From positions 1-64,000 of the forward strand of contig JAGWWY010000005.1 in the NCBI GenBank assembly GCA_018970145.1: a DNA stretch of 64,000 nucleotides. Direction: 5' to 3'. The position numbers were made by a program, and so were the translations under genes. Positions 16,697-34,838 of this stretch are shown here, piece after piece; positions within the stretch are counted from its first letter, which is position 1; each line of letters begins with the position of its first letter. The stretch comes from Gammaproteobacteria bacterium. Its GTDB lineage: Bacteria; Pseudomonadota; Gammaproteobacteria; Steroidobacterales; Steroidobacteraceae. The notes beneath the pieces were generated by a model, which ran no database searches, was not told the origin of the DNA, and saw only the letters and a program-made list of their open reading frames with translations.

Positions 16697-17953
16697 TCAG
16701 GCTTGATACACCGGGAATCGCCGGCAGAGTGCCGTCACCTTCGCGCGCACCTGCTCGATCGCAGCGGCCGCGCCTTCGGCGTCGAGCACATCGGCGATGA
16801 GATCGGCCACTTCGCGTACTTCGGCTTCTTTGAAGCCCCGGGTTGTCGCCGCTGGCGTACCGATGCGGATACCGCTCGTCACCATCGGCGGGCGCGGATC
16901 GTTCGGCACCGCGTTCTTGTTCACCGTAATGTGCGCAGCACCGAGTGCGGCGTCGGCATCCTTGCCGGTGATGTTCTTGTCCGACAGATCGATCAGGAGC
17001 AGGTGGTTGTCAGTGCCGCCCGAGACGATGCGATAACCGCGCTGCTGAAGCTGCGCGCACATGGCACGCGCATTGACGACGACCTGGCGCTGATAATCTT
17101 TGAACTCCGGCTGTAGCGCCTCGAGGAAGGCGACCGCCTTCGCTGCGATCACATGCATCAAGGGACCACCCTGCGTACCCGGGAAAACCAGCGAATTGAA
17201 TTTTTTGGTGAGCTCATCGTTCTTGCGTGCGAGGATCAATCCGCCGCGCGGTCCGCGCAACGTCTTGTGGGTCGTGGTGGTCACGACATCGGCATAAGGA
17301 ATCGGATTCGGGTACTCACCCGCCGCAACGAGACCCGCCACGTGCGCCATGTCGACATGCAGGTAGGCGCCTACCTTGTCGGCGATCGCACGAAAACGTG
17401 GAAAGTCGAGCAAGCGAGAATATGCCGAGAAGCCGGCGATGATGAGCTTGGGCTTGACCTCGAGTGCTTGCGCTTCGAGGGCGTCGTAGTCGATCTCGCC
17501 GTTGTCGGGTCGAATGCCGTACTGCGAGGCGGTAAAGATCTTGCCCGAGAAGTTCACCTTCGCGCCGTGCGTAAGGTGACCGCCGTGATCGAGGCTCATG
17601 CCGAGGATGGCATCACCCGGCTTCAGCAAAGCTAGGTATACCGCGGCGTTGGCCTGCGAACCGGAGTGCGGCTGCACGTTGGCGTAGTCGGCACCGAAGA
17701 GTTGCTTGGCGCGATCGATCGCCAACTGCTCGGCAATATCCACGTGCTCGCAACCGCCGTAGTAGCGCTTGCCGGGATAGCCTTCGGCGTATTTGTTGGT
17801 GAGCACGGAACCCTGCGCCTCGAGCACGCGCGGACTCGCATAGTTCTCGGAGGCGATCAACTCGATATGATCTTCCTGACGTTGCCGTTCGGCGCCCATC
17901 GCAGCGGCGAGCTCGGGGTCGAATGCGGCAATGGTCATCTGGCTGGAGAACAT
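16697..17953 (-). CDS. glyA: Serine hydroxymethyltransferase
   Basis: PLP enzyme that converts serine and tetrahydrofolate to glycine and 5,10-methylene-tetrahydrofolate, the main one-carbon source. The 418-residue protein shows [36 protein letters not shown], and the PLP-lysine motif [14 protein letters not shown] near residue 225. The start at 17953 has GAGG about 8 bases upstream; a second in-frame ATG five codons later ([10 protein letters not shown]) is possible. Together with the nearby folE2 it serves folate metabolism. nrdR follows after 8 bases. Confidence 0.96.
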
Positions 17954-18036
17954 CGGCGAGGCCTCGGGAAAGCAGGTGGCGGAAAGCTCGGTATTTTAGC
18001 CGAAGGCGGCGGCTCCCCGGCCCGCTCGTCTTGCAA

Positions 18037-18978
18037 TCAAGCGAAAAGATGCTCGACGACGGCGTTCCAGGCAGAGGCGATGTTCGGTCGGTGATAACCG
18101 CCACCACCGGTGGCGAGCAAGCGGCCGTGACCCAAGCGCTCGGCCAAGTTGCGCAAATCCGCTGTCGCGCGCGCGTGGGCGCCTGGCGAGAACCGCAAGT
18201 GCGTCAACGGATCGCCCGCCACACTGTCGGCACCGGCCTGCAGGATGATGAACTCGGGCGCGAACGTCTCGAGGTGACGCAACACCTGCTCCCAGGCTGG
18301 CTCGAACGCGGCATCGTCGGCACCGGGCATCAGCGGCAGATTGAGCTTGGTGCCCGTCGCCTCGCCCTTGCCGATCTCGTCCTCCGATCCGGTACCCGGG
18401 TACAAGTGGCGCCCATCCTCGTGGATGTCGGCGAAGATGACGCCCGGGTCGGTCTCGAAGCCGTAATAGAGTCCATCGCCGTGGTGGGCATCGATGTCGA
18501 CGTAGGCAATCCGTTGCAGGCCGTGCTCGCGGCGCAACCATTCGATCAACACCCCGCAATCGTTCAGGGCGCAAAATCCCGCCGCGCCGCGCCGTGCGGC
18601 GTGGTGCAGGCCTGCGATGGGCACGAAGGCCCGTCGCGCTCGCCCCTGCATGATCTCGGTGCCCGCCAGTAAAACGCCTCCGACGACGTCTGAGGCGGTT
18701 TCGAAGACGCCGCGAAAAGCGGGCGTATCGCCGCCGTCGAGATAGCCCTCGCCAGTCGCAGAGCGTTGTTGCAAGAAGGCAAGGTAGGCCGGGGAGTGGA
18801 ACAGCGCAAGTTCGTCGGCGCTCGCGCGGCGCGGCTCCTCGATACGGCAACGTCGCTCGAGGCCACGCGCTTCGAACTCGCGGTAGAAGGCATCGTGACG
18901 GTCGAGGCCGAAAGGATGACCCGCACCAAACCCGTAGCGCGCGAGCCGCTCGCCGGCGACGACCAGAACTTCGGACAT
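18037..18978 (-). CDS. Histone deacetylase superfamily protein (AcuC/class II HDAC-like)
   Basis: A zinc-dependent arginase/deacetylase-fold enzyme of 313 residues. The zinc and catalytic residues are visible: [18 protein letters not shown] (the paired His and substrate loop), [14 protein letters not shown] (metal-binding Asp and His), [15 protein letters not shown] (second metal Asp) and the glycine-rich LATGGGGYH. Bacterial members deacetylate acetyl-lysine on proteins such as acetyl-CoA synthetase, or acetylated polyamines; the substrate here cannot be told. It lies upstream of glyA in the same direction (83-base gap) and is divergent from ettA (54 bases). Confidence 0.88.
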
Positions 18979-19032
18979 CGTCCTGCCCTCCCGAAGATGC
19001 GGCGAAGCCTAGCACAGGCGATAATCACGCCC

Positions 19033-20706
19033 ATGGCTCAATACATTTACACGATGAACCGGGTGGGCAAGGTTGTCCCCCCGAAACGTCACATCCTGCG
19101 CGACATCAGCCTTTCCTTCTTTCCGGGAGCCAAGATCGGCGTGCTCGGTCTGAACGGCTCGGGTAAATCGACGCTCCTGAAAATCATGGCCGGTCTCGAT
19201 ACGAACATCGAGGGCGAGGCACGACCGCAGTCGGGGATCCGCGTGGGCTACCTGCCGCAGGAGCCAGAGCTCGATCCGAACAAGAACGTGCGCGAGGAAG
19301 TCATCGCCGGAATCGGCGGTATGTTCGCGAAGGTCGAACGCTTCAATGCGATCAGCGAAGCCTTCGCCCTGCCGATGTCCGACGACGAGATGAACAAGCT
19401 CCTCGAAGAGCAGGCCAAGCTGCAGGATGACATCGATGCCGCCGGTGGCTGGGAGCTCGATCGCAAGCTCGAGATCGCCGCTGACGCGCTGCGTCTGCCG
19501 CCCTGGGAAGCCAAGATCGAAAATCTCTCCGGTGGTGAAAAGCGCCGCGTGGCGCTGTGCCGTCTGCTGCTCGCAGCGCCTGACATGCTGCTGCTCGATG
19601 AGCCCACCAACCACCTCGATGCCGAATCGATCCATTGGCTCGAGAAGTATCTCGAGGCCTATCCCTCGACCGTGATCGCGGTCACCCACGATCGCTACTT
19701 TCTCGACAACGTCGCCGAGTGGATCCTCGAACTCGATCGGGGTCATGGCATTCCGTACCAAGGTAACTACTCGACTTGGCTCGAGCAGAAAGAAAAACGC
19801 CTCGCGCAAGAAGAGCGCGAGCGCGATGCCCTGCGCAAGACGCTCGAGCGCGAGCTCGAGTGGGTGCGCCAAAATCCGAAAGCGCGTCAGGCCAAGAGCA
19901 AGGCGCGCATGCAGCGCTACGAGGAGCTCGCCTCACGCGAATTCCAAGAGCGCAACGAGACGAACGAGATCTACATCCCGCCCGGTGAGCGCTTGGGTGA
20001 TCTCGTGATCGAGGCCAAGGGTTTGCGCAAAGCCTTTGGCGACAAGTTGCTGTTCGACGATCTGAACTTCAACCTGCCGCGCGGTGGCATCGTTGGCATC
20101 ATCGGCCCGAACGGCGCCGGTAAGACCACGCTCTTTCGCATGCTCACCGGTGTTGAACAGCCGGATTCCGGCGAATTCCGTGTGGGTCCGAGCGTGAAGC
20201 TCGCGTATGTTGATCAATCACGCCAGGCGTTGAACGACAAGAACAGCGTGTGGCAGGAAATCTCGAACGGTCTCGATCTGATCAAGGTCGGCAACTATGA
20301 GACACCCTCACGCGGTTACGTCGGGCGCTTCAACTTCAAGGGCACGCAACAACAGCAACTCATCGGTGAGCTCTCGGGCGGTGAGCGCAATCGCGTGCAT
20401 TTGGCCAAGGTGTTGAAGTCTGGCGGCAACGTGTTGCTGCTCGACGAGCCCACGAACGACCTCGACGTCGAAACGCTGCGCGCGCTCGAGGAGGGCCTAC
20501 TGGCTTATCCGGGCTGCGCCGTCGTCATCTCGCACGACCGCTGGTTCCTCGATCGAATCGCCACCCATATCCTCGCCTTCGAGGGCAACTCGGAGGTGGT
20601 CTGGTTCGAAGGCAATTATCAGGAATACGTCGAGGACTATAAGAAACGCCGCGGCGAGGACGCCGAGCGTCCGCACCGCATCCGGTACAAACCGCTGACG
20701 CGTTGA
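19033..20706 (+). CDS. ettA: Energy-dependent translational throttle protein EttA (ABC-F)
   Basis: An ABC-F ATPase that binds the ribosomal E site and gates entry into elongation according to the ATP/ADP ratio. The 557-residue protein starts [17 protein letters not shown], exactly as EttA, and has two ABC modules: Walker [10 protein letters not shown] and GPNGAGKTT, signatures [12 protein letters not shown] and [12 protein letters not shown], and Walker [12 protein letters not shown] and [11 protein letters not shown]. The charged helical linker ([19 protein letters not shown]) lies between them. The open frame is longer upstream, but the ATG at 19033 is clearly the start. No membrane domain, as expected. 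Confidence 0.96.
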
Positions 20707-20709
20707 GGA

Positions 20710-21090
20710 TCAGCCTCCGCCGCCGTTCAAAATGGCGGAGGCGCCGATCGAACCACGCTGCTGTTGTTCGCGCACCCACTCACCCGAGCCGTTCTGCGAC
20801 TCGGTGGTCGTGCAAACCTTGCGGGTTCGGAAACTCGAGCCCGTGACTTTCTCTTCGCGACACTTGACCTTCGGTGTCTTGTCTTCGGTCTTGGCGGCGA
20901 CCGGCGTCGCGCTAGCCGGCGTGGTAACCGCTGCGGGCGTGGTGGCTGACGGTGTTGTGCTGGCTGCCGCCGAAGTACTCGCCGGTGCTGCGCTACCCGG
21001 GACGGGCGGATCTGCGGCGAAGACCGGCAGAGTCATCAACCCACCGGTCATGATCAGCAGCGATTTCGACAACTTCTGAGCGAACTTCAT
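20710..21090 (-). CDS. Small secreted protein with Ala/Thr/Pro-rich linker and two-cysteine C-terminal domain
   Basis: Not assigned to a named family. The 126-residue product has a signal peptide (MKFAQKLSKSLLIMTGGL, cleavage likely after VFAA), then a low-complexity Pro/Ala/Ser/Thr linker of about 45 residues. A conserved-looking C-terminal domain, KVKCREEKVTGSSFRTRKVC followed by TTTES, has two Cys that could form a disulphide in the periplasm. Similar C-R-x-x-x-V-T-G-S...C tails occur in small exported proteins of xanthomonads and sphingomonads. The frame extends to 21129 but the ATG at 21090 gives a proper signal peptide. It is divergent from the TPR-sulfotransferase gene by 59 bases. Confidence 0.75.
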   Translation of the reverse strand: MKFAQKLSKSLLIMTGGLMTLPVFAADPPVPGSAAPASTSAAASTTPSATTPAAVTTPASATPVAAKTEDKTPKVKCREEKVTGSSFRTRKVCTTTESQNGSGEWVREQQQRGSIGASAILNGGGG

Positions 21091-21149
21091 GGCCACGCGC
21101 CTCCGCATTCGTTTGAGCAATATCTCCACCCTGAGTACGCTAGCGAGCC

Positions 21150-22946
21150 ATGAGCACTGAGCGCAAGCCCTTGCCGAACATTTGGTGGACTGAGGCGGCC
21201 ATTCCCGTGCTCGAATCGTGGCTCAAGGAGGATCCCGAGTGCGGCGAAGCCTGGCTGGCCCTGCACTACGATCTCACCACGGCCGGTCAGCTCGAGGCGG
21301 CACGCCACGCTTATAGCCAATTTCTGCGTAGTCGCTGTCCCGTCGGGCCCGTCCGACGAGCCGCCGAGCAACTCTGCGAAGGGCGCCTGCCCGAAGCCGA
21401 TTTTTTGCTGAAAGATCATCGGCGACGCAATCCGCCGGATCCGCTCGTATTACAACTGGCGGCAGAGGCGGCGTTTCGTCGTCAAAAGGACGGCGATTCC
21501 ATTGCACTGTTGCACGAATGTTTGCAGCTCGCACCGGATCAGCCCGGTGCGCGCTTCTCGCGCGCCCTCGCCTATTACCGCACAGGCAAGCCCGTCGAAG
21601 CTGAAACCGATCTTGAAACGGAGCTACAGCGACAACCGAATAACCCCGCCTGTCGCGCCCTGCTCGCTGCGGCGCTCACCAAAACTACGGGTGTGGAGCG
21701 TGCGCTCGAATTGTATGCACGGCTGACCGACGAGTTCCCGAGCCAAGCGACGCTATGGATGAGTTTTGGCCATGTGCTGAAAGCGGCGGGTCGACAACCC
21801 GAGAGCATCGAGGCCTATCGAAAAGCCACGCAGCTTGAACCGAAGATCGGTGAGGCTTGGTGGAGTCTTGCGAACCTGAAGACGGTCAAACTTTCAGCGG
21901 AGGATATCGCCGCGATGACGGCGCAATTAGATCGAAGCGATCTGACTGACGATGATCGGCTGCACTTCGAATTTGCGCTTGGCAAAGCACACGAGGATCT
22001 CGCGCAGTTCGACACCTCGTTCCGACACTACGATGCCGGTAATCGTCTTCGCTTGCGCATCGCGCCCTACGAGGCGGAAAGCTCGACGGTCAATCTGCGT
22101 CGCAGCCAAGCCATTTATACCCGTGATTTCTTTGCCGAGCGTCGAGACTGCGGCGCGAAGGCGCTCGATCCCATCTTCATCGTGGGCTTGCCGCGAGCCG
22201 GATCCACGCTGATCGAACAGATTCTCGCGAGCCACTCGCTGATCGAAGGCACGATGGAACTGCCGAACATCACGGATATCGCCCGCAGCATCGCGGATCG
22301 ACAACGCAACGACGCCGATTACGACTACCTGCCGCTGATCCCGAGCTTGGCCTCCGATGAGTGGCGGAGCCTCGGCGAACGATACATCAGCGGCACCCGA
22401 ATCTATCGCAAGACGGCGCGCCCGCTGTTCATCGACAAGATGCCGAACAACTTCACGCATCTGGGGCTCATCCATCTCATCTTGCCGAACGCGAAGATCA
22501 TCGATGCCCGGCGTCACCCGATGGCCTCGTGCTTCTCGAACTTCAAGCAGCATTTTGCGCTAGGGCAGTTGTTCTCTTACGGTCTCGAGAACATCGGTCG
22601 CTTTTATCGTGATTACGTGGAGTTGATGGCGCACTTCGACGAGGTGCTGCCGGGCCGAGTTCACCGCGTGTATTACGAGAATATGGTCTCGGACACCGAA
22701 AACGAGATCAGGCGCTTACTCGATTATTGCGGTGTGCCGTTCGAGGAGCAGTGCCTGCGCTTTCACGAAACGGAGCGCATCGTACGCACGGCGAGCTCAG
22801 AGCAGGTGCGAAAGCCGATCTATCGCGAAGGCGTCGATCACTGGCGTCACTACGAGCCTTGGCTCACACCGCTGCGAAGCGCACTCGGTGCCGTGTTGAC
22901 GAGCTATCCCGACGTACCGGTATTCGACTCGTCATCGAATCGATAA
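21150..22946 (+). CDS. TPR-repeat sulfotransferase
   Basis: A 598-residue fusion. Residues about 1-270 are tetratricopeptide repeats (for example HYDLTTAGQLEAARHAYSQFL and ALYRTGKP-type helices; ALELYARLTDEFPSQATLWMSFG; SIEAYRKATQLEPKIGEAWW). Residues about 335-590 are a PAPS-dependent sulfotransferase with the 5'-phosphosulfate loop FIVGLPRAGSTLIEQILAS, an acidic/Asn region, KMPNNFTHLGLIHLILPNAKIIDARRHPMASCFSNFK (3'-phosphate site) and WRHYEPWLTPLR near the end. There is no signal peptide, so it is cytoplasmic. It likely sulfates a peptide or glycan bound by the TPRs; the substrate is unknown. Part of the hydroxylase/sulfotransferase cluster, and overlaps the next gene tail-to-tail by 43 bases. 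Confidence 0.88.
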   Translation: MSTERKPLPNIWWTEAAIPVLESWLKEDPECGEAWLALHYDLTTAGQLEAARHAYSQFLRSRCPVGPVRRAAEQLCEGRLPEADFLLKDHRRRNPPDPLVLQLAAEAAFRRQKDGDSIALLHECLQLAPDQPGARFSRALAYYRTGKPVEAETDLETELQRQPNNPACRALLAAALTKTTGVERALELYARLTDEFPSQATLWMSFGHVLKAAGRQPESIEAYRKATQLEPKIGEAWWSLANLKTVKLSAEDIAAMTAQLDRSDLTDDDRLHFEFALGKAHEDLAQFDTSFRHYDAGNRLRLRIAPYEAESSTVNLRRSQAIYTRDFFAERRDCGAKALDPIFIVGLPRAGSTLIEQILASHSLIEGTMELPNITDIARSIADRQRNDADYDYLPLIPSLASDEWRSLGERYISGTRIYRKTARPLFIDKMPNNFTHLGLIHLILPNAKIIDARRHPMASCFSNFKQHFALGQLFSYGLENIGRFYRDYVELMAHFDEVLPGRVHRVYYENMVSDTENEIRRLLDYCGVPFEEQCLRFHETERIVRTASSEQVRKPIYREGVDHWRHYEPWLTPLRSALGAVLTSYPDVPVFDSSSNR

Positions 22947-23560
22947 CCGAACAGGTCGATGTCGATCCGATAACGCTCGGCGACGCGCTGTTTCAAGTCT
23001 GCGTCGTAGTACTCACGGTAATCGCGATGTTCGGACGCGTTACGCGTCTCGAGAGCGAGTTGCGGCAAGGAGAGCGCTTTACAGAGCGCATCGAAATCCG
23101 ACTGCAGTGATTCGGCTCGCAAGAGATGCGACACCATCACTACGCCGCTCTCGTCGGTGACGAAATCGGCCTGGGCGCGAAAATGTACGGGGCTCTGATT
23201 CTGCGGATTGGCGAGCACGCGTCGCATCGCCGCTTGCGGATCGCTCGCGAATAAGTCGGTGTGACGCATCATGAAGGCGACATACGAGACGAATCTCGCC
23301 CACGGATTTCGAACCACCGCGAAAGATACATAACGCGACCAGAGATCCGAACCCAAGGCGTCACGGATCTCGCGCGCGAGCTGATGGCCGTGCTCCACCC
23401 GTGAAAACTCCGGCCGCTCGATGCGCTTGCGAACGAACAACGACACCTGTTCCTCGTCGTTGTCATTAAGACAGGGACGCAGAGCAAAGCGGATGCTGTG
23501 GCTCGCCACTTTAGGCACTGCCACGAACACGAACCGATGTTGATGCGAAATGATGGTCAC
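22904..23560 (-). CDS. Sulfotransferase family 2-like protein
   Basis: A 218-residue protein resembling the Sulfotransfer_2 family (carbohydrate-type sulfotransferases). It shows the PAPS 5'-loop FVFVAVPKVASHSIRFAL at residues about 10-27 and the 3'-phosphate motif AVVRNPWARFVSYVAFM near residue 80. The C-terminal EYYDADLKQRVAERYRIDIDLFGYRF is the family's usual ending. No signal or membrane segment is seen, unlike eukaryotic Golgi relatives. It lies 15 bases downstream of a small hydroxylase gene in the same direction, so hydroxylation and sulfation are probably co-expressed. Substrate unknown. Confidence 0.82.
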   Translation of the reverse strand: MTIISHQHRFVFVAVPKVASHSIRFALRPCLNDNDEEQVSLFVRKRIERPEFSRVEHGHQLAREIRDALGSDLWSRYVSFAVVRNPWARFVSYVAFMMRHTDLFASDPQAAMRRVLANPQNQSPVHFRAQADFVTDESGVVMVSHLLRAESLQSDFDALCKALSLPQLALETRNASEHRDYREYYDADLKQRVAERYRIDIDLFGYRFDDESNTGTSG

Positions 23561-23575
23561 GCGGGTTAGACGGAC

Positions 23576-24115
23576 TCAGGCTGGCTCTTCGAAATAATCG
23601 ACGATCAAGTGGATGCGCCGCACCGGCGAGGCATTGAGGACGCTGTGCCGGCGCAGATTGTCGAGCTCATAGGCCTGACCAACGGCGAGTTTGATGTCCT
23701 CGCCTTCGACCCAAAACTGCACGTCGGGGTGCGTCTCGAGCGGAACGTGAACACGATGCGCCGCCTCTAGCGTCGGACCATAGTCTTCGTGCTCGGGTAT
23801 GTCATCGCCAGGCCCGAGAGCAGCCACCTGTGCATTCAAGACTCGACCCCGACGGGGATAGAACGAGGCGATGCGTTGTACAACCGGTTCGAATGCGCCG
23901 TGCAAAGGCGCCCAACCGGTAAGCCGACGCGTCGGCATGGTCGGGCCACCCACCGTCATGAGCAGATAGATCGTCCGGCTTTTACGATACGGCGCCAGAC
24001 GCTTCTGAAACTCCTGATCGGCGTTCCATAGTTCTTCGGGCTGCTGCAGGAGGCATGCCTTGAATCCGGTGATATCCACCTCACCGAGGTGTCGCATTCG
24101 TTCATCGCAACGCAT
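23576..24115 (-). CDS. Aspartyl/asparaginyl beta-hydroxylase-type protein
   Basis: A 179-residue, single-domain member of the Asp_Arg_Hydrox (AspH-like) 2-oxoglutarate/Fe(II) dioxygenases. The cupin core shows VAALGPGDDIPEHEDYGPTLEAAHRVHVPLETHPDVQFW in segments, with the iron-ligand candidate in PEHED, the AHRVHVPL strand, and the second ligand His in ELDNLRRHSVLNAS. It ends in RRIHLIVDYFE. Cytoplasmic, with no signal peptide. The first gene of a two-gene unit with the family-2 sulfotransferase, divergent from the TPR-oxygenase by 65 bases. A later in-frame ATG (residue 7) is an alternative start. Substrate unknown. Confidence 0.82.
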   Translation of the reverse strand: MRCDERMRHLGEVDITGFKACLLQQPEELWNADQEFQKRLAPYRKSRTIYLLMTVGGPTMPTRRLTGWAPLHGAFEPVVQRIASFYPRRGRVLNAQVAALGPGDDIPEHEDYGPTLEAAHRVHVPLETHPDVQFWVEGEDIKLAVGQAYELDNLRRHSVLNASPVRRIHLIVDYFEEPA

Positions 24116-24180
24116 GCGTCGATGCTAACCGGCTCATCGGGCTATGGCCATCGCGCGCCGGAGGGAGAACAATACGGTTC

Positions 24181-26049
24181 GTGACGATCTCATCCGCACC
24201 CGGTACAAACGACCAACAGCAACTCGCCGCCGCACACACCGCGCTGACGCAAGGCAAGCTCGATACGGCACTCACTCTGGTCGAGACGCTGCTGCAGCGC
24301 CTCCCCGCTTGGGCGCCTGCCGTGCATCTGGCCGGTCTGATCGCCAAAGCCGTGGGTGATCTCTCTCGAGCCGAGGACCTGATGCGCCGCTCGCTGGAGC
24401 TGCCGGGTCCGGCGCCACGCGCCCGCGCGGAGTATGCAAACAACCTCGGTAATCTGCTGCGTAGCGCCGGCTATCCTGCCGCTGCTGCGGCGGCATATGA
24501 ACTTGCCATCGAACTGGCCGCGTTACCGCAGGCCGCAATCGGTCTTGCGCGCGCGCTGCTCGAACTCGAACGACCCGAAGAAGCCTTGCAAGTCATTGCG
24601 ACTCACACGGGCGCATCAACACCCTTGCTCGCGGTGCTCATCCGCTCCGAGGCGCTATCGCAACTCGGCGAACGCCAGGCCGCGCTACATGCACTCGGTG
24701 CCGTGAACGAGGTCGAGAAGACGCGCAGCAGTTTCTGGGTGGCGCTCGGATCGCGCCTCGCCGCCCTCGGCCGTTTCGAGGAGGCAGAGACCGCGCTCCT
24801 GCCGCTGCTCGCGACATCGGACGCCGCAGCCGCCATGCTCGCCTTGGCCGAAGTTCGCGTCATGTCGCGCGACTGGGTCAATGCACTCGAGATCTTGAAA
24901 AAGGGCATCCAGCAATTCCCGCACAGCATCGAGCTGCATAGTCGCCACGCGGGACTCGCGTGGATGATGGGCGATCATCGTCACTTCGCCGATCCGATGC
25001 GAAAAGCACTCACCGATCGGCCTACTCACAGCGGACTACGGCTTGCTTTGGTGACGGCTCTCGGCAATGCCGGTCTGCATGACGAGGCCGAGCAAATCCT
25101 TCGCGCCGGGCAATTGCTGCGTCCTAACGATCCGCATTTTCTCTCGCTGCTCAGTCTGCGTTGCGCCGAGACGGAGCGTCTCGATGAGGCGGCACAATGG
25201 ATCGAAACGGCCCTCTCGATCGCACCCGAATTCGAATTGGTACGCGAGCATGCGACTATCGTGGCGCTGTGCCGCCAGCAACCCGATGTCGCTTTGACGC
25301 ACACGGAGTGGCTGACAAGTCGACGACCGCTCGGTCAATTCGCCTGGGCCTTGCACACGACGGCACTCCGCACCGCCGCACGCGATGAGTGGCGACGCTA
25401 CGCCGACCCCAGCGCGGTCTGTCACAGCCGCGTACTCACGCCACCGGCTGGCTATGCGTCGATCGAAGCGTTCAACGCCAAGCTCGCTGATCGATTGCGA
25501 GTACGACACAATCTCTCCGCGCATCCACTGGTGAATTCGGTTCGCCAGGGGACGCAGATCGAGATCCTCCCAGAAGCGGAGACGGATCCGATCCTACGCG
25601 AGTTTTTCGAAATGATTCGCGCGCCGATCGCGAATGTCATCGCCTCGATGCCCGAGGATGCCACTCACCCGCTACATGCGAGACGAGCGCACTCGAGAGA
25701 GTCTGAGGATTTTCACTTCTCGGGTTGTTGGAGCGTGCGGCTACGCGGTGGTTCGGGAAAACATGTGAGCCATATCCATCCGCGCGGTTGGCTCAGCTCG
25801 GCGTACTACGTCGAAGTGCCCGAGACGATCGCATCCGATCCCAATCGAGGCGGGTGGTTGCGTTACGGCGATCCGCCGTATCCGATCAAAGATTTAGAAC
25901 CGAGTGGTTGGGTGCAACCCAAAAGTGGCACACTGGCGCTCTTCCCGTCGTATCAGTGGCATGGAGTCGAGCCATTTGCAGGCAAAGGAGAGCGCATGAC
26001 GATCGCCTTCGACGTGGTACCACGTCGCGGCTATTCGCGCCCTGGCTAA
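24181..26049 (+). CDS. TPR-repeat 2OG-Fe(II) oxygenase
   Basis: A 622-residue fusion starting with GTG; GGAGGGAG lies about 12 bases upstream, a long spacing. Residues about 10-380 are tetratricopeptide repeats (AAHTALTQGKLDTALTLVETLL; LGNLLRSAGYPAAAAAAYELAIEL; and more). Residues about 420-620 are a 2OG-Fe(II) oxygenase of the kind grouped as putative prolyl-4-hydroxylase-like (2OG-FeII_Oxy_5): SGCWSVRLRGGSGKHVSHIHPRGWLSSAYYVEVP, then GWVQPKSGTLALFPSYQWHGVEPF, with the HxH-like and distal His iron ligands and the arginine for 2-oxoglutarate near ERMTIAFDVVPRRG. Together with neighbours it looks like one of three hydroxylases acting around one receptor. Confidence 0.87.
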   Translation: MTISSAPGTNDQQQLAAAHTALTQGKLDTALTLVETLLQRLPAWAPAVHLAGLIAKAVGDLSRAEDLMRRSLELPGPAPRARAEYANNLGNLLRSAGYPAAAAAAYELAIELAALPQAAIGLARALLELERPEEALQVIATHTGASTPLLAVLIRSEALSQLGERQAALHALGAVNEVEKTRSSFWVALGSRLAALGRFEEAETALLPLLATSDAAAAMLALAEVRVMSRDWVNALEILKKGIQQFPHSIELHSRHAGLAWMMGDHRHFADPMRKALTDRPTHSGLRLALVTALGNAGLHDEAEQILRAGQLLRPNDPHFLSLLSLRCAETERLDEAAQWIETALSIAPEFELVREHATIVALCRQQPDVALTHTEWLTSRRPLGQFAWALHTTALRTAARDEWRRYADPSAVCHSRVLTPPAGYASIEAFNAKLADRLRVRHNLSAHPLVNSVRQGTQIEILPEAETDPILREFFEMIRAPIANVIASMPEDATHPLHARRAHSRESEDFHFSGCWSVRLRGGSGKHVSHIHPRGWLSSAYYVEVPETIASDPNRGGWLRYGDPPYPIKDLEPSGWVQPKSGTLALFPSYQWHGVEPFAGKGERMTIAFDVVPRRGYSRPG

Positions 26050-26075
26050 GTGAGGCCAAATCGACTCGCGCTCCG

Positions 26076-27329
26076 TCAGCCCAAGCGAAACTGGCGCTCT
26101 GCGGCCGCCATGCGTTGCACGATCTGTCGCTCCTCGAGCGTCAGTAACGGATTCCAGACATCGAAGATCATCACGACCCGAATCTCGTCGCTATCGTTCC
26201 AAGCTTCGTGCTCGATGGTGTCATCGAAAACGATCACTTCGCCCTCGACCCAGCGACGATTGTCGTAGCCCACTCGGAATAGACACGGTTCGGGAACGAC
26301 CAAGGGCAGGTGCGCAACGAGACGTGCATTCGACTCGCCATGATGCGGTGGAATCTTCGTCTTTGGCGCCAACACCGAAAACATGGCATTGGGGCAGGTA
26401 CCGGCGAGATGGACCGCATCGATCAACTTCAACGCTTGGGCTGTCTTCGGACAGCGCGCGAGGTTGGCTTCGACCGGCTCGCCACCGCGATACAGATGAA
26501 AACTCGTCCACGCGCGCGAGTGATTGAGTTCCGCCCATTGATTCACCGGATCACCGGCACCGTACTGCACATAAGGCGTGAACTCGGCAGAGGCTTCGCT
26601 CAAGGCTGAGATCATTTCGTCGCGAATATCGGCGGTACGCTTCTCGAGTTCGGGGACCCAATCAAACATTTCGCGCCGAAAGAACGGTTGCGCGGGTAAG
26701 CGTGGCACGCCGAGCTGGTTGCTCTGCGAGAGAAACGGTTTGCACCTCCCCGCCAAAATCGAAATTGCCTCGCGCCAACGCGCGCTCAAACCCGGCAGAC
26801 CATCGACGGCCTGAAGCAAGCTCGCTTCGAGCGCTTCGCTGTACATCGAAACCACTTGCTCGGCGTGCGCGAGCGGCCGGCGGAAAGACTCCGGTCGATA
26901 TTCCGCAGGCGGTGAGATTTTGAGCACATCGCGATAGACGAGCGCTGCCGCCTTGGGCTTTCCCTGCCGCTCGAGTAGATCGGCTTTCTGCAGCAATGCA
27001 GGCCAGCAATAGGGGTCGATGGCGAGCGTCGCTTGTAAGGCTTCGAACTCGTCCTCGTAGCGGCCGAGCAAACGCAAGCTCGCCGCACGCGTCAGACCAA
27101 AGTCGACCAGAGCATCAGGCTCGATCTCGTGGGGCTTCACCCGCTCGAGCAACTCCAAGGCTGCCGCGGCACGGCCGGTCTCCAAGTCGAGTCGGCACAG
27201 GGCGATGACCGCGCGCGCTGCCGAGGGCTGTGCCGCCACGATAGTCTCATAGCTTCGTCTTGCCGCCGCCTTGTCGCCCGCGGCCTCTGCTTCTTTGGCC
27301 TCACGCCACCACTGCTGCACGTTGCTCAT
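26076..27329 (-). CDS. TPR-repeat aspartyl/asparaginyl beta-hydroxylase
   Basis: A 417-residue fusion. Residues about 1-160 are TPR-like helices (WWREAKEAEAAGDKAAARRSYETIV; ALELLERVKPHE; ALQATLAIDPYCWPALLQKADLLERQGKPKAAALVYRDVL). Residues about 230-400 are an AspH domain: FSVLAPKTKIPPHHGESNARLVAHLPLVVPEPCLFRVG (the PPHHGESN iron-ligand region and Arg for 2-oxoglutarate), then EGEVIVFDDTIEHEAWND with the second His. No signal peptide. A strong terminator at 27344-27377 sits between the TonB receptor gene upstream and this gene, so it is probably expressed from its own promoter or by limited read-through. Substrate unknown. Confidence 0.87.
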   Translation of the reverse strand: MSNVQQWWREAKEAEAAGDKAAARRSYETIVAAQPSAARAVIALCRLDLETGRAAAALELLERVKPHEIEPDALVDFGLTRAASLRLLGRYEDEFEALQATLAIDPYCWPALLQKADLLERQGKPKAAALVYRDVLKISPPAEYRPESFRRPLAHAEQVVSMYSEALEASLLQAVDGLPGLSARWREAISILAGRCKPFLSQSNQLGVPRLPAQPFFRREMFDWVPELEKRTADIRDEMISALSEASAEFTPYVQYGAGDPVNQWAELNHSRAWTSFHLYRGGEPVEANLARCPKTAQALKLIDAVHLAGTCPNAMFSVLAPKTKIPPHHGESNARLVAHLPLVVPEPCLFRVGYDNRRWVEGEVIVFDDTIEHEAWNDSDEIRVVMIFDVWNPLLTLEERQIVQRMAAAERQFRLG

Positions 27330-27343
27330 GGATCGCTCACTTC

Positions 27344-27377
27344 AAAAAAAAGGGGTGCCGCCGAAGCGACACCCCTT
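27344..27377 (-). terminator. Rho-independent terminator of the TonB-dependent receptor gene
   Basis: On the minus strand, a 12-bp stem (27366-27377 pairing with 27350-27361, one U-G wobble) is closed by a UUCG tetraloop and runs into eight T residues. It begins about 24 bases after the receptor stop codon. UUCG-capped stems followed by a T run are among the strongest intrinsic terminators. Confidence 0.93.
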
Positions 27378-27400
27378 GTTTATCAACGTTATCGTCGAGA

Positions 27401-30400
27401 TCAGAACTTGTACGAGACACCGACGCTGTAACGGGGTCCGAGCGGATCGTACATATCGACGTAGGCGTTCGCCGAGGTGTTGCCACCCGGAATGTTACCC
27501 ACGACGGTCGGATCTTCGTCCGTCACGTTCTGAGCGGCCAAGGTCACGCGCAGCGCATCGTTCCACTTCCAAGTGACCGAGAGGTCGACGTATTGGAAGG
27601 AAGGAATGTTCTCGATGAGGTAGATGCTGCGACCGACCTGATCCGGATCATCGTTGCGAGCCTGTACATCGACCGACGACAGGTGACGCACGAAGACCGA
27701 AGCCGAGAAGGCGCGCCAATCAGCCGACAATGACAGATTCGCGCGATCCTTCGGAGTCGGCGTACCGCAAGTATCACCGTAGACGCCTTGACACTCGATC
27801 AGCGGCGAGGCCGGGCTCGACTTGAACGAGCTATCGAGCGTGTGCGAACCGGAGATACCCGCCGTCAGACCGACTTCACCCAACTCGAACGCGTAAGAGA
27901 AGGCGTAATCGACACCCTCGGCCGTCAGCGTCGAGAGGTTGCGAGTCTCTTGGACGATACCGAAGCCATCGCCCTCGAGTTCACCGAGCGAGTTACGCTT
28001 GATGAGACTGCAGAAGCTCGTGATGTTGTTGTTGAAGCAGTTGTCGAGCACTTCCTGCGCGCCATACGAGCCGATACCACCTTCGATCTCGATCTTGTAG
28101 TAATCGACCGAGGCGGTGAAACCCGGCAGCGCTTCCGGAGTCATCTGGAAGCCGATCGTGAAGGTGTCCGCCTCTTCGGCCTCGAGCGAGATACCGAGAG
28201 CGACGGCACCACCGCCGATGCTCGCAGCCTGCTGCGCGGCCGGCGGCGCGATCGAACCGATCTGCGAAGCCGGGGCACCCTGCGCAATACACTTCGCACG
28301 CAGCGTTGCATTGGTGACCGGACCCGAGCCCGCGCAAGGATCACTGCGCACTTCGGTGAGACCGAAGGCGAGCGGCGCAAACTGTTCGCCGATATTTGGT
28401 GCGCGAACGGCTTTCTGCAACATCGCACGGAAGCGGTAACCCGCAACCGGCGTGTACTCCAAACCGGCTTTCCAGGTCTCGAAGGAGCCGGCGAGGTTCG
28501 TTTCCGAAGCACGCAGACCGAGGTCGAGCGCGAGGTTCTCGACACCCGCCTTACCCGTGATCAACGGCACATAAGCTTCGCCAAAGAATTCGAGCGTATC
28601 GACACGGCCGGCGAGCGGCGGTGCCGTACCACCCTGACCCATCGCACCACCGAACTGGGTGAGATCGTCAGGGCGGAAGTCGGCGTTGAATTCGGTCCAC
28701 TCGGCACCGAAGGCGAGACCAACCGGTGAATCCGCAGCTGGCAACTGGATGCCCGCCACCGGACCCGACACGATTGCCGAGGCCGTCTTGGCTTCGGTGA
28801 CCTGGGTCGAGTAGTAGCTGGCGCGGATGTAGTCGAGACCCGCCTGCGAGATGGCACCGGTCATCGGCACGCCGCTGTCGCGGTAGACGCTACCGTTACC
28901 CGAGAAGATGTTGACCGGCGCACAGGTGCCGCCCGAGACGCACTTGATGCCATCGGGAGTCTGGATCGCCACGATCGCTTTGCGGGCCCGATCGATGCTG
29001 ACGTCATTCTGCAGACCATCGAGACGCGAGACGCGACCGAACTGCGACGAAACGTCGTAGGTCCAATCCGAAGCACCGATATCGCCCCGCACGCCCGCGG
29101 TCAGCTGGAGCGTCTTCGACTCGGAAATACCGACGCGAGGTCCAAGCTCGATCAGACGGCGGCGCAGGCCGTTGACCGTGACGAGTTGGGTACCCGGGGT
29201 CGCATTCGGGTTGAAAACGCCGTGCGGCACTTCACCGGCGATCGGGAAGGCAGCCTCGTTGTTGTACGCGGCGATCAAGGCTGTGCGCTGACCGGCGGTG
29301 AGGAACGGGTTGTCCAGGTTGACCTTGAACGTGGCCGTCGAACCACCGAAGAACGCCGAAGAGGCGAGCTGCGTCGGCACGTCGGAGTTGACGGCGAACA
29401 CGCGGCCGTAGATCTCGGTCGAGTCGCTGATGTCGAAGTCGATCGAACCGAAGGCCGACCAGCGCTCCTGCGGAACCTGGAAGTAGTTGTACGGGTTGTA
29501 GTTGAAGGTAGCGTTCGGCGCGTACTGACCGAGTCCACCGCGGGTGGTCAGCTTGCCATCCGGGGTGAAGTAACGGCTCGAGAAACCGCCCGACGCCGTA
29601 CGGATCGCAGCGCGCGTCGCACCGGCGTTGCTCGAACCGAGCTGACGGTCGGCACCAAAGATATCGGACGAGTAAGCGTACCAGCTGCCGGCGTAACGGT
29701 AACCGTCGGCGGCGAACAGGTTGTAGTTCGAATAAGCGCGGTCACCCTGCAGCACTTCATCGCGCTTGGTGTAACCGAACGAGAGGATCGCCGAACCGCG
29801 ATCGTCCGCGAACTTGGCGCCGGCCGTGAGCGCGGCGCTCATCACGCGCCCATCGCCTTCGCCGTACTGCGAAGCGTTGTAGTCAGCCTGCAGGCCTTCG
29901 AAATCCTTCTTCGTGATGAAGTTCACGACGCCCGACACGGCATCCGAACCGTAGACGGCCGAGGCACCGCCCGTGACGATATCGACGCGCTCGACGATCG
30001 CGCTCGGGATCAGGTTGATGTCGACAGCACCGCTCGTGCCGAACGGCGGCAAACGCTTGCCATCCATCAACACCAAGGTGCGGTTCGAACCGAGGCCACG
30101 CAGGTTGATCGTGGCGGCACCCGGGTTGCCGTTATTGATGTACTCGGTCGCGCCCGGCAGGAACTGGGGCAGCTGACGCAGCTGAGTTTCGAGGTTGATG
30201 ACGTTCAGCTCTTCGAGCTGCTCGGCCGACACCGTCGAGATGGGGCTGTTGGAAACGAGGTCCGGCTTCGCGATACGCGTACCGGTGACGACGACTTCAT
30301 CCAAACTCGCTTCTTGAGCGAGGAGCATGCCGGGCATGGCAAACGCCATAGAACCGTAAAGAACTTGTGCGACGCTTCGTCGAACGAGTGGATTCGATGT

Positions 30401-30406
30401 ACTCAC
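27401..30406 (-). CDS. TonB-dependent outer-membrane receptor
   Basis: An outer-membrane beta-barrel for energised import of a large or scarce ligand, 1001 residues. A signal peptide (ending about MLLAQEA) is followed by the TonB-box-like LDEVVVTGTRI. The plug domain has LRQLPQFLPGA, INLRGLGSNRTLVLMDGKRL and GGASAVYGSDAVSGVVNFI. A long barrel follows, ending in the terminal aromatic signature RYSVGVSYKF. The GTG at 30406 is the likely start: GGGAGGG lies 6 bases before it. The frame could open at 30421, but that would bury the binding site in the coding sequence. No FecR/sigma partner is nearby; instead it adjoins hydroxylases and sulfotransferases. Ligand unknown. Confidence 0.92.
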   Translation of the reverse strand: MSTSNPLVRRSVAQVLYGSMAFAMPGMLLAQEASLDEVVVTGTRIAKPDLVSNSPISTVSAEQLEELNVINLETQLRQLPQFLPGATEYINNGNPGAATINLRGLGSNRTLVLMDGKRLPPFGTSGAVDINLIPSAIVERVDIVTGGASAVYGSDAVSGVVNFITKKDFEGLQADYNASQYGEGDGRVMSAALTAGAKFADDRGSAILSFGYTKRDEVLQGDRAYSNYNLFAADGYRYAGSWYAYSSDIFGADRQLGSSNAGATRAAIRTASGGFSSRYFTPDGKLTTRGGLGQYAPNATFNYNPYNYFQVPQERWSAFGSIDFDISDSTEIYGRVFAVNSDVPTQLASSAFFGGSTATFKVNLDNPFLTAGQRTALIAAYNNEAAFPIAGEVPHGVFNPNATPGTQLVTVNGLRRRLIELGPRVGISESKTLQLTAGVRGDIGASDWTYDVSSQFGRVSRLDGLQNDVSIDRARKAIVAIQTPDGIKCVSGGTCAPVNIFSGNGSVYRDSGVPMTGAISQAGLDYIRASYYSTQVTEAKTASAIVSGPVAGIQLPAADSPVGLAFGAEWTEFNADFRPDDLTQFGGAMGQGGTAPPLAGRVDTLEFFGEAYVPLITGKAGVENLALDLGLRASETNLAGSFETWKAGLEYTPVAGYRFRAMLQKAVRAPNIGEQFAPLAFGLTEVRSDPCAGSGPVTNATLRAKCIAQGAPASQIGSIAPPAAQQAASIGGGAVALGISLEAEEADTFTIGFQMTPEALPGFTASVDYYKIEIEGGIGSYGAQEVLDNCFNNNITSFCSLIKRNSLGELEGDGFGIVQETRNLSTLTAEGVDYAFSYAFELGEVGLTAGISGSHTLDSSFKSSPASPLIECQGVYGDTCGTPTPKDRANLSLSADWRAFSASVFVRHLSSVDVQARNDDPDQVGRSIYLIENIPSFQYVDLSVTWKWNDALRVTLAAQNVTDEDPTVVGNIPGGNTSANAYVDMYDPLGPRYSVGVSYKF

Positions 30407-30512
30407 TAGCAACCCTCCCACAGGGTAAAGACGGTCTTGCCGAGACCTGTTAATAGACCTAGTTACGAGGGTATGCCCTTCCCTAAATCGGCGTCAAGCA
30501 ATGCCCCCACAG

Positions 30513-30530
30513 TGTTGCTTAAAAGCAACA
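30513..30530. promoter_or_regulatory. Inverted repeat between purL and the TonB receptor gene
   Basis: TGTTGCTT (30513-30520), two bases, then AAGCAACA (30523-30530): a perfect 8-bp palindrome just after the purL stop. It has no T run, so it is either a weak purL terminator or an operator upstream of the receptor gene. On the minus strand TTGACG follows, a possible -35 of the receptor promoter, but the matching -10 is poor. Confidence 0.4.
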
Positions 30531-30532
30531 AA

Positions 30533-33500
30533 CTATCCGAGCCAAGCCCTCGCATTGCGGAAGAGACGCACCCAGCCGGAATACTCGCCGGAGCCCGCAG
30601 GATGCCAAGACATCTGCGCGTTGCGAAACACCCGCTCCGGGTGCGGCATCATGATCGTCACGCGGCCGTCTTGGCTGCATAGCGCCGCCAATCCGTTTGG
30701 CGAGCCGTTCGGATTGGCAGGATAGCGCGAGGCGATGACCCCGCGCGATTCGACGTAACGCAAGCCGATCGTGCCCGAGTTCTCGCAAGCGGCCGCCTGC
30801 ACCGTATCGACGAATTCCGCGCGGCCCTCGCCATGCGACACCGCGATCGGCAACACGGAGCCCGACATGCCGGCGAACAAGATCGACGGCGTCGAAAGCA
30901 CTTCAACCAAGCTCGCACGCGCCTCGAACTGCTCGACGCGATTACGAACGAAACGCGGCCAATGCGTCGCACCCGGAATGATCGGTGCGAGTTGCGCCAT
31001 CATCTGGCAACCGTTGCAGACGCCGAGTGCGAAGGTGTCACCACGCTCGAAGAAAGCGGCGAACTGCTCGCGCATCTGCGCATTGAAAAGTATCGATTTG
31101 GCCCAGCCCTCGCCGGCACCGAGCACGTCGCCGTACGAGAATCCACCACAAGCGACGAGCCCCTGAAAATCGGAGAGAACGTGGCGACCCGCGACGAGAT
31201 CGGTCATGTGCACATCGTGAGTCGCGAACCCTGCGCGATCAAATACCGCTGCCATTTCCGACTGGCTGTTCACGCCCTGCTCGCGTAATACAGCCAAACG
31301 CGGGCGAACACCCGTTGCGATGTAGGGCGCTGCGACATCATCACCGACATCAAAACTCAGATCGACGAGCAGCGGTGGCGTCGTGATCTGGGTCGCTGCC
31401 TCGAACTCTTCTTGAGCGCAAGTGGGATCATCGCGCCGCTCACGCATACGGAACGAGGTCTCGGACCACTCACGCTTGAGGTTGGCCCACGATTCGTCAA
31501 TCAACAACGATCCCGCGCTGATGCGGATACGATCGGACTCTGGCTCGACACGGCCGATGACCGCACTGCAATGACCGACACCGTGCGCAAAGAGCACGCC
31601 GAGCACCTCAGCAGCATCGAGAATACGCACTTGCAGCACGATGCCGAGCTCTTCGGAGAACAGCGCGGCGAGCGCATCTTCCTTGTTCTGCCGCGCATGT
31701 TTGCTCTTGAGGCCGATGTTGACCTCGATACCGCAGTGACCGGCAAAAGCCATTTCGATCAACGTGACAGCAAGACCGCCGTCTGATCGATCGTGATAGG
31801 CGAGCACCTTGTCGCGCTCGCGCAGCATGGCAAGCGCCGCCGCCACGCCTTTCAGCAGAGACGGGTCATCGACATCGGGCGGTTCCGTGCCGAGCGCACC
31901 ATAAACTTGCGTCAGTACCGAGCCGCCTAAACGATTACGGGCTTCACCAAGATCAACATAGATCAACGCCGTGGGGCCGCAGTCGCGACGCAACTCCGGT
32001 GTCCAACAGCGACGCACATCGGCCACGGGCGAGAACGCCGAGACAATCAAAGAAACCGGCGCGACGACCGACTTCGATTCACCCGACTCGTCTTTCCAGG
32101 CGGTGCGCATCGAAAGCGAATCTTTGCCAACTGGTATTGCAATACCGAGCGCGGGGCAAAGCTCTTCACCGATGGCTTTGACGGCCTCGTAGAGCTTGGC
32201 ATCTTCGCCCGGCTCCCCGCAGGCTGCCATCCAGTTGGCCGACAAGCGAATATCGCTCAGACGACGCACATCGGCTGCCAAGATATTTGTGATTGCCTCG
32301 CCCACGGCAAGGCGCGCAGCGGCGCCGGAATCGAGGATTGCGACCGGCGTTCTCTCGCCCATCGCCATCGCCTCGCCTTCGACGCCAAAATAATCGGCTG
32401 TGGTGACACCGCAGTCTGCGACCGGTACCTGCCAAGGCCCGACCATCTGGTCGCGCGAAATCATGCCGCCGACCGTGCGATCACCGATCGTGATGAGGAA
32501 GGTCTTGTCGGCCACCGCCGGGAATCGCAGCACGCGGCGCAGTGCCTCGCGTGCATCGAGCGTCGCGAGCCCGAAAGGCACCGCTGCAGGCGGCACACTC
32601 GTGACATCGCGCAGCATCTTTGGCGTCTTGCCGAGCAGCACTTCGAGCGGCATGTCGACTGGCGTTTCATTGAGCAACGAATCAACGACCCGCAGCTGCC
32701 CGTCGTCGGTCAACGTGCCGATCACGGCATAAGGACAACGCTCGCGGGCACAGAGCTTGTCGAAATCGGTAATACGATCTGCTGCGACGATGAGCACGTA
32801 GCGCTCTTGCGACTCGTTGCACCAGAGCTCCATCGGCGACATTCCGGGCTCGTCCGACGGAATCGCCCGCAGATCGATGATGGCGCCGCGATTACTATGC
32901 GAGACGGCTTCAGGGACCGCGTTGGAGAGACCGCCAGCGCCGACATCGTGGATCAGCAGAATCGGATTCGCTGCGCCTTCGGCCCAGCAGCGATCGATCA
33001 CTTCCTGCGCACGCCGTTGCATCTCGGGATTGCCACGCTGCACCGAGGCGAAATCGAGATCCGCCGATGACGTGCCGGCGCCGACCGAGGAGGCAGCGCC
33101 GCCTCCCAAGCCGATCAACATCGACGGGCCGCCCAGCACGACCACCTTCGCGCCAACCGGGCAGTCGCGCTTCTCGATGTGATCGCGGCGCACGTTACCA
33201 AGACCGCCCGCAATCATGATCGGCTTGTGATAACCGCGATGCCGAGTCGGCGGATCACCAGCACCATGTAATTCAAAGTTACGGAAATAGCCGCAAATTC
33301 CAGGGCGTCCGAATTCATTGTTGAAGGCCGCCGCACCGAGCGGCCCCTCGGTCATGATCTCGAGCGCCGAAGCGATGCGATCAGGCTTGCCGATCGCCGG
33401 CTGCCCCGGCAACTGCTCCCACGGTTGCTCAAAACCCGGGATGCGTAAATGCGATACCGAAAATCCGACCAGCCCCGCTTTGGGCTTCGCGCCGATGCCG

Positions 33501-34483: not shown

Positions 34484-34496
34484 GCCGAGTGAGGGC

Positions 34497-34838
34497 CTAT
34501 TTCTTTGAGCCGTCACCCGCGGGAGGCGAGTAGACCGGCATGGGGAATTGCGCGACGTTCGAGCCTTCGTAGGCGCTGATCTTGCTGACGCCCTGCGTTT
34601 TCACCTCGTCGATACGCAACACCGAATGCATCGGAATGTAGCTGCGCTTGACGCCCTCGAATTCGGATTTGATCCGCTCTTCGCCGGGGTCTACCACCAC
34701 GCTCGAGCGCTCACCGAAGACGAGCTCTTCGATTTCCACGAAACCGAACAAGCTGCCGTGCGAAACCTTGCGGGCGAAGATCTCGTAGACCTTGCCTTGG
34801 TTGACGAACATGACTTTGTAGATGTGACTGGCGGGCAT
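34497..34838 (-). CDS. DUF1820 family protein
   Basis: A 113-residue conserved gammaproteobacterial protein of unknown function. The DUF1820 pattern is plain: [20 protein letters not shown] near the N-terminus, [21 protein letters not shown], then [21 protein letters not shown], and a Pro-rich tail ([11 protein letters not shown]). No signal peptide or membrane segment. The start is only 17 bases from the 3' CCA of tRNA-Ser and has no recognisable ribosome binding site, so it is probably cotranscribed with the tRNA. The purL start codon follows 13 bases after its stop. Confidence 0.88.

Follow-up and report, generated by a model that had tools for sequence, protein, structure and literature searches.

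The window analysed here is a stretch of 64,000 nucleotides from a gammaproteobacterium of the family Steroidobacteraceae (NCBI GenBank assembly GCA_018970145.1, contig JAGWWY010000005.1, positions 1 to 64,000). An initial annotation, made from the letters alone, had pointed to a locus of seven genes in alternating directions, encoding three 2-oxoglutarate (2OG)-Fe(II) hydroxylases, two sulfotransferases dependent on 3'-phosphoadenosine 5'-phosphosulfate (PAPS), a TonB-dependent receptor (TBDT) and a small secreted protein with two cysteines. An open reading frame (ORF) map combined with Pfam searches confirmed all seven genes with these features at 20710-30421, in the strand order - + - - + - -, as well as the tetratricopeptide repeats (TPRs) on three of the enzymes (P2, P5 and P6). 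The 1001 residues given for the receptor hold from the start chosen in that annotation, and the frame measures 1006 aa from a GTG at 30421. As supported by the counts given below, the enzyme genes belong to a recurrent receptor-centred set and are not a random assortment. The features of the locus, followed by its left border, are:

P1, 20710..21090, minus strand: small secreted protein, 126 aa from the ATG at 21090, Ala/Pro/Thr-rich, with the C-terminal motif C-x5-TGS-x7-C
P2, 21150..22946, plus strand: TPR-Sulfotransfer_3 protein, 598 aa, with Pfam TPRs and Sulfotransfer_3 (1.1e-47)
P3, 22904..23560, minus strand: Sulfotransfer_2 protein, 218 aa, Pfam Sulfotransfer_2 (2e-13)
P4, 23576..24115, minus strand: short Asp_Arg_Hydrox protein, 179 aa, Pfam Asp_Arg_Hydrox (1.5e-10)
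P5, 24181..26049, plus strand: TPR-2OG-FeII_Oxy_5 protein, 622 aa, with Pfam TPRs and 2OG-FeII_Oxy_5 (1.5e-21)
P6, 26076..27329, minus strand: TPR-AspH protein, 417 aa, with Pfam TPRs and Asp_Arg_Hydrox (1.8e-42)
P7, 27401..30421, minus strand: TonB-dependent receptor, 1006 aa from the GTG at 30421, with Pfam Plug and TonB_dep_Rec_b-barrel
Left border, 18766-20706, plus strand: ABC-F-like gene

The right border is a 1327-residue gene (30533-34516, minus strand) that we take to be purL. Within the locus, the P3 and P2 genes overlap tail-to-tail and the P4 gene lies 15 bp upstream of P3 on the same strand. Gene maps were drawn with a simple ORF script, which may choose antisense frames and overlook short genes. 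Ten other scanned proteins of the window resemble the products of ordinary chromosomal genes, such as topoisomerase subunits, DXP synthase and GMP synthase. Across the host genome (2.43 Mb, 94.65% complete, 23 contigs), the only two Asp_Arg_Hydrox genes and the only Sulfotransfer_3 gene lie at the locus, and four Oxy_5 genes were found at E 1e-8. One of the latter (C10:5838) adjoins another host TBDT; its frame of 276 aa leaves no room for a long TPR array, and we set it aside as a proximity that may be due to chance. The genome also encodes an adenosine 5'-phosphosulfate kinase, so that a source of PAPS is present. Since it holds 39 TBDT barrels, a single receptor next to such genes means little alone; it is the recurrence in other genomes that places the grouping beyond chance.

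The enzymes appear to have kept their active sites, the inferred catalytic histidines, arginines and binding-loop residues being at least 90% conserved within each enzyme family (115, 11, 14 and 44 sequences). P2 and P3 both combine a Pfam sulfotransferase domain with conserved putative binding residues, as PAPS sulfotransferases do; in P2, residues R349, G351, D429, K430 and R455 are invariant in an alignment of 13 sequences, and the conserved residues of both proteins are presumably involved in PAPS binding. The C-terminal half of P2 gave weak PDB matches to CurM and to protein-tyrosine sulfotransferases. The conserved residues of P5 are H528, H531, H533, H594 and R605, and this protein passes PF13759 but falls below the TIGR02466 NCBIfam cut-off (41.1 vs 62.5 bits). 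Both P6 (145.3 bits) and P4 (41.6 bits) exceed the Asp_Arg_Hydrox (PF05118) cut-off of 22.6 bits. For P6, the best PDB sequence match was AspH (5apa, 9.3e-25) and all matches at E 0.001 were AspH entries (11 distinct sequences); its S318, H329, H340, H374 and R384 align with the Fe- and 2OG-binding residues S668, H679, H690, H725 and R736 of human AspH, numbered as printed in PMC13168262. An AlphaFold2 model of P6 (mean predicted local distance difference test score 91.4) opens directly with helices of the TPR region, and its eleven top Foldseek matches were all AspH, the first ten being chains of ~430 residues, covering both the TPR region and the oxygenase. The oxygenase alone superposes on 5apa with a root-mean-square deviation of 3.1 Å and the full length fails to do so (about 18-19 Å), which indicates that the two domains are turned differently from AspH in the model. 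Judging by eye, P2 to P6 begin with ordinary or TPR sequence, and P1 and P7 with a signal-peptide-like segment.

The chromosomal position of the locus is shared by two relatives in the same genus, G013 and G020, whose stretches L081 and L087 were compared with window positions 16697-34516. There, genes that we take to be glyA, HDAC-like, ABC-F and purL (about 70-91% identity) frame a diverged version of the cluster, with a TPR-sulfotransferase, a member of a second family of secreted proteins, a TPR-AspH protein, an Oxy_5 protein and a TBDT. The slot thus behaves as a replaceable cassette, which retains the system while its parts diverge or get swapped.

In a search of 60 near-relative genomes, including the host, P2 found matches in 55 and P6 in 45, and 80 stretches were taken; a TBDT-labelled ORF was present in 28 of the 40 stretches taken for P2, which were strong matches and not a random draw. 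A TPR-AspH profile built from 14 proteins was then compared with the GTDB species genomes, where at least 595 stretches matched, 551 were confirmed and the best 80 were kept (L114, L148 and L157 repeat contigs also sampled as G018, G001 and G016). These best 80 loci span Xanthomonadaceae, Caulobacteraceae, Hyphomonadaceae, Sphingomonadales, Rheinheimera, Chromatocurvus, Haliea and others. A TBDT lies within 6 kb in 59 of the 80, directly upstream on the same strand at no more than 300 bp in 23 of those 59, and in 41 of the 54 loci whose two flanks each reach at least 6 kb. From the host density alone (39 in 2.43 Mb; the densities of other genomes do not enter the estimate), a TBDT that near would be expected in about a quarter of loci. 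Distance within the same loci serves as a control: in the 47 loci with 9.5 kb flanks, TBDT numbers per 2-kb bin outward were 24, 19, 1, 6 and 2, a sharp drop past 4 kb, with the reservation that genes cut at the end of a locus may be missed in the outer bins. Other cluster enzymes within 8 kb in the 54 loci were Oxy_5 (20), Sulfotransfer_3 (16) and Sulfotransfer_2 (3), and many loci hold just one or two of the enzymes. Distance and fusion counts both rely on home-made profiles seeded from the window proteins. The gene-neighbourhood comparison that the initial annotation had suggested thus revealed no random arrangement when read from enzyme to receptor; the opposite direction is looser, as described below. 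In a plasmid collection, 96 records matched P6, one of them covering at least 80% of it; of two plasmid regions opened, one has a TBDT, a hypothetical protein and AspH in a row, and the other is unannotated there.

Several observations stand beside these counts. In L035-L069, a TPR-sulfotransferase, often of ~670 aa, directly adjoins a different TBDT clade, mostly of 800-900 aa with a VTA-type box, without hydroxylases. In L155 (Xanthomonas phaseoli), the cluster receptor is present as two frames of 318 and 672 aa, and the frames for the sulfotransferases, at 347 and 424 aa, are short. L111, titled Candidatus Planktophila lacus, an actinobacterial name, is a near copy of the window gene order and is likely a mislabelled or mixed metagenome bin.

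The receptors next to TPR-AspH genes are clustered on a tree of 180 TBDTs (FastTree). The AspH-linked label required 18 changes compared with a mean of 60.3 after shuffling (none of 500 shuffles as low), and the label for receptors linked to a TPR-sulfotransferase only required 4 compared with 27.3, contrasts that are inflated by near-copies on a tree with several long branches flagged. With a mean length of 1000 aa the linked receptors are long, and they are rich in cysteines, averaging 11.8 against 4.0 in 38 other host TBDT frames, which were read stop to stop and include one, G000:C19:4496, that adjoins a TPR-Oxy_5 gene yet was counted as unlinked. The closest relative of P7 in the host genome (G000:C19) also adjoins a TPR-Oxy_5 gene. 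As the conserved cysteines also occur in unlinked members of the clade, they mark the subfamily and not a modification. Residues commoner in linked than in unlinked receptors include N97 (0.84/0.38), S263 (0.94/0.54) and N985 (0.86/0.46).

Proteins joining both activities were also found. Asp_Arg_Hydrox is fused to Sulfotransfer_3 in eight genomes, and TPRs, 2OG-FeII_Oxy_5 and Sulfotransfer_3 are combined in two more; short hydroxylases of the P4 type are among those fused to Sulfotransfer_3 in other genomes. Four such proteins came from the first locus sets (L103, L168, L105 and L106), and Pfam, run on three of the eight AspH-sulfotransferase fusions (L103, L168 and L264) and on both Oxy_5-sulfotransferase fusions (L105 and L106), confirmed all of them. 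When the L264 fusion was used as query against 369 genomes of the class, 21 matched at E 1e-25: in five the match is nearly full length and crosses both domains with no stop, in three it is limited to the hydroxylase and in 13 to the sulfotransferase. L285 unites a TBDT, an Oxy_5 protein, two TPR-sulfotransferases, a fusion, a Sulfotransfer_2 protein and a TPR-AspH protein; in L283 and L284 a TPR-sulfotransferase lies beside or near the fusion with no TBDT. Unfused hydroxylases sit inside a cluster of TBDT and TPR-sulfotransferase (L289, L290) or, in L288, whose stretch shows no TBDT, beside an Oxy_5 gene and not far from a sulfotransferase. A TBDT was seen with three of the eight AspH-sulfotransferase fusions (L103, L168 and L285). 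Because both domains occur in one protein in ten genomes, hydroxylation and sulfation probably belong together, and the fusions are the strongest evidence supporting such a coupling; the link to the receptor rests on the other counts. A small 2OG-FeII_Oxy_3 protein was noticed at L168 6333-6962 and at L103 3371-4063, in clusters with an AspH-sulfotransferase fusion.

Small secreted proteins recur at these loci as well. P1 has a signal-peptide-like N-terminus (by eye) and two cysteines, and gave no Pfam match at E 0.01. A profile of 20 P1-like proteins, nearly all from loci fetched for cluster enzymes or receptors, was run against 60 relatives, and 13 of the 14 best matches (E up to 1.2e-14) lay at enzyme or receptor clusters, the exception being G055:C4 (L251). 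This count is partly circular, since 8 of those 13 proteins went into the profile and the remainder are mostly close orthologues; what it shows is that, among near relatives, P1 of the window type remains at such clusters, and nothing beyond that. Within 8 kb, P1 is found in 12 of the 54 full-flank TPR-AspH loci, or 15 with a wider profile. A second family of two-cysteine secreted proteins, of the LENGQVWRQ type, ranks first among the unlabelled neighbours (21 of 80 loci) and by profile lies within 8 kb in 32 of 80, for example at L122 11242-11709; the member scanned matched nothing in NCBIfam, and in Pfam it matched VasI only below threshold. Of the 41 TBDT-positive loci, 27 have one or the other family within 8 kb, against 1 of the 13 TBDT-negative ones, the second family having itself been discovered among these same loci.

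The cysteine-bracketed TG[ST] core of P1 (20710-21090) resembles the TonB-box region VTG[ST]RI of the receptor (27401-30421). The N-terminus of P7 carries a TonB-box-like VTGTRI, which we take to be its TonB box; VTG[ST]RI is present in most linked TBDTs where a box was found, and P1 has TG[ST]R-like cores. That P1 mimics the TonB box or shares a docking peptide with it is not relied on here, as the wider P1 motif family is for the most part not near a TBDT (1 of 20 regions, picked as not known to lie at clusters).

The analyses establish the domain content of the enzymes, the conservation of residues that are probably catalytic, the recurrent linkage of these enzymes to one receptor subfamily and the fusions, and the grouping of the window is a real recurrent system. 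With a probability of about 0.45, we propose that it is a receptor-dedicated hydroxylation and sulfation module, TPR-guided and cytoplasmic, acting on the TBDT or on a small secreted partner. The hydroxylases P6, P5 and P4 and the PAPS sulfotransferases P2 and P3 would work in the cytoplasm, where the TPR domains would hold an unfolded protein or peptide. The 2OG enzyme would hydroxylate a side chain, and a sulfotransferase might then sulfate the new hydroxyl or a nearby Ser/Thr, in an order of steps that is itself tentative. The product would be a protein encoded in the cluster itself, either secreted or placed in the outer membrane, that acquires its modifications ahead of Sec export. The substrate may be the TBDT itself or a small two-cysteine partner (P1 here, another family elsewhere); as the most constant partner, the receptor is the first candidate, with P1 or the second secreted protein next. 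A protein or peptide partner fits because TPRs are fused to modifying enzymes, as in human AspH. The narrower proposal that AspH-like hydroxyls are sulfated by fused or neighbouring sulfotransferases, so that TonB receptors or small partners would carry O-sulfated hydroxy-amino acids, and that the enzymes are functional counterparts of human AspH, seems doubtful to us. To our knowledge, an O-sulfated hydroxy-amino acid residue is undescribed in bacteria.

Several results weigh against the proposed module. No TBDT lies within 6 kb in 13 of the 54 full-flank TPR-AspH loci, and the loci are related, so that the counts are not independent and no formal probability is given. In the reverse test, 7 of 20 regions around P7-like receptors, mostly picked as having no known enzyme, show TPR-Oxy_5 and/or TPR-sulfotransferase genes, and 13, some on short contigs, show none of the enzymes; the enzymes are therefore found with the receptor subfamily more consistently than the subfamily is found with the enzymes. 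In the host genome, the Oxy_5 gene C10:16674, a long frame, has no TBDT match nearby. No TBDT was seen in the stretches around five of the eight AspH-sulfotransferase fusions (L264, L283, L284, L286 and L287); the last two stretches also showed no further enzyme of the cluster. Among the receptors, no alignment column strictly separates the 85 AspH-linked from the 13 unlinked members (29 linked to sulfotransferase only were also compared). An epidermal growth factor (EGF)-like 10-residue ring, C-x-[DN]-x4-[FY]-x-C, is the substrate motif of AspH; as candidate substrates, receptors only were searched, and the looser form C-x-[DN]-x6-C was present in 18 of 70 linked TBDTs, so we discarded this ring as a general AspH site in receptors. 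P1 contains zero tyrosines, which excludes its tyrosine sulfation in the window and means that any sulfation of P1 would have to take place on Ser, Thr or a hydroxylated residue. In 20 regions with weaker P1-motif proteins that were not known to lie at clusters, one TBDT and one case of enzymes were found. Finally, a hydropathy script did not separate P6 (1.44) from P7 (1.55), which leaves the cytoplasmic site unproven by this measure. The initial annotation had inferred a hydroxylated and sulfated peptide or receptor: this interpretation is partly supported, in that the linkage of the two activities was strengthened by fusions beyond the window's own sequence, whereas the receptors gave neither a conserved EGF-type motif nor a strict linked-only residue.

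Among the alternatives, the one that survives best, unlikely as it appears, is that the cluster encodes tailoring enzymes for a small molecule or a short peptide, for instance a metal-binding one, that is exported and re-imported by the receptor, with P1 as a periplasmic helper. It is favoured by the usual role of TBDTs in import, by the use of beta-hydroxyaspartate to bind metal in some siderophores, by the weak match of P2, in its sulfotransferase half, to the polyketide sulfotransferase CurM, and by enzyme combinations that differ between loci, as they do in tailoring pathways. Set against this, three unrelated catalytic families all carry fused TPRs, which suggests a protein partner, and no scaffold-making enzyme was recognised in the 28 largest neighbour groups, a weak negative based on the first 80 residues of one member each, with a domain search for only a minority of the groups. 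It is improbable that hydroxylation and sulfation are both real yet serve separate substrates, their genes merely sharing a variable slot for surface or adaptation genes: the diverged cluster in the slot of G013 and G020 and the many loci with just one or two enzymes would suit such sharing, but the fusion of the two activities in ten genomes, the distance profile of the TBDTs and the clustering of the AspH-linked label on the receptor tree (helped by near-copies) speak for a common function. That P6 and P4 are lipid hydroxylases like LpxO/OlsC, with sulfotransferases acting on a lipid or glycan, is very improbable. The NCBIfam matches of P6 that would favour it (OlsC 97.8 bits, LpxO 61.2 bits) are sub-threshold and far below the cut-offs (450 and 500), which led us to reject that identity; the PDB sequence search with P6 at E 0.001 gave no family other than AspH, and the best fold matches, over the whole of P6, are again AspH chains.

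The proposed module can be set beside several known systems. Human AspH, the best PDB sequence and fold match of P6, likewise has TPRs N-terminal to an HxG...H oxygenase, with aligned Fe/2OG residues, and its TPR domain takes part in substrate binding according to PMC13168262; P6 differs in lacking a visible endoplasmic reticulum signal or anchor and in the domain orientation of its model, and the receptors encoded nearby show no conservation of the EGF-like ring motif. RaxX-RaxST, which yields a tyrosine-sulfated Xanthomonas peptide, resembles the locus in placing a bacterial sulfotransferase beside a small exported protein; here P1 has no tyrosine, and hydroxylases and a TBDT accompany it. 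Other TBDT loci have cytoplasmic accessory enzymes, such as SapC, cupin or tryptophan halogenase, and share with our locus a TBDT beside cytoplasmic oxidative enzymes; their enzyme families are different, and TPR fusions and sulfotransferases are particular to the locus. O-GlcNAc transferase and other TPR-linked modifiers also join a TPR array to a protein-modifying catalytic domain, and O-GlcNAc transferase was among the TPR matches in the PDB sequence (P2) and fold (P6) searches; its chemistry is different, and these matches of P2 lie in the TPRs. In line with the remark in the initial annotation that no pathway was described for this combination, none appeared to be described in the titles and abstract openings listed by searches of an open-access library, most subscription papers lying outside that scope. 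No open-access paper was found that combines TonB-dependent, SapC and tryptophan halogenase, and the words sulfotransferase, hydroxylase, tetratricopeptide and TPR are all absent from the main text of PMC1790865.

In many environmental bacteria, TonB receptors are main gates of uptake; a single genome may encode dozens of them, many without a known ligand. If enzymes are indeed dedicated to one large receptor subfamily, then either these receptors or their partners would be chemically edited, or a whole class of ligands would have gone unknown. The fusions allow the link between hydroxylation and sulfation to be tested with a single protein, and bacterial counterparts of AspH that share its TPR-plus-oxygenase plan would help to explain the origin of that plan.

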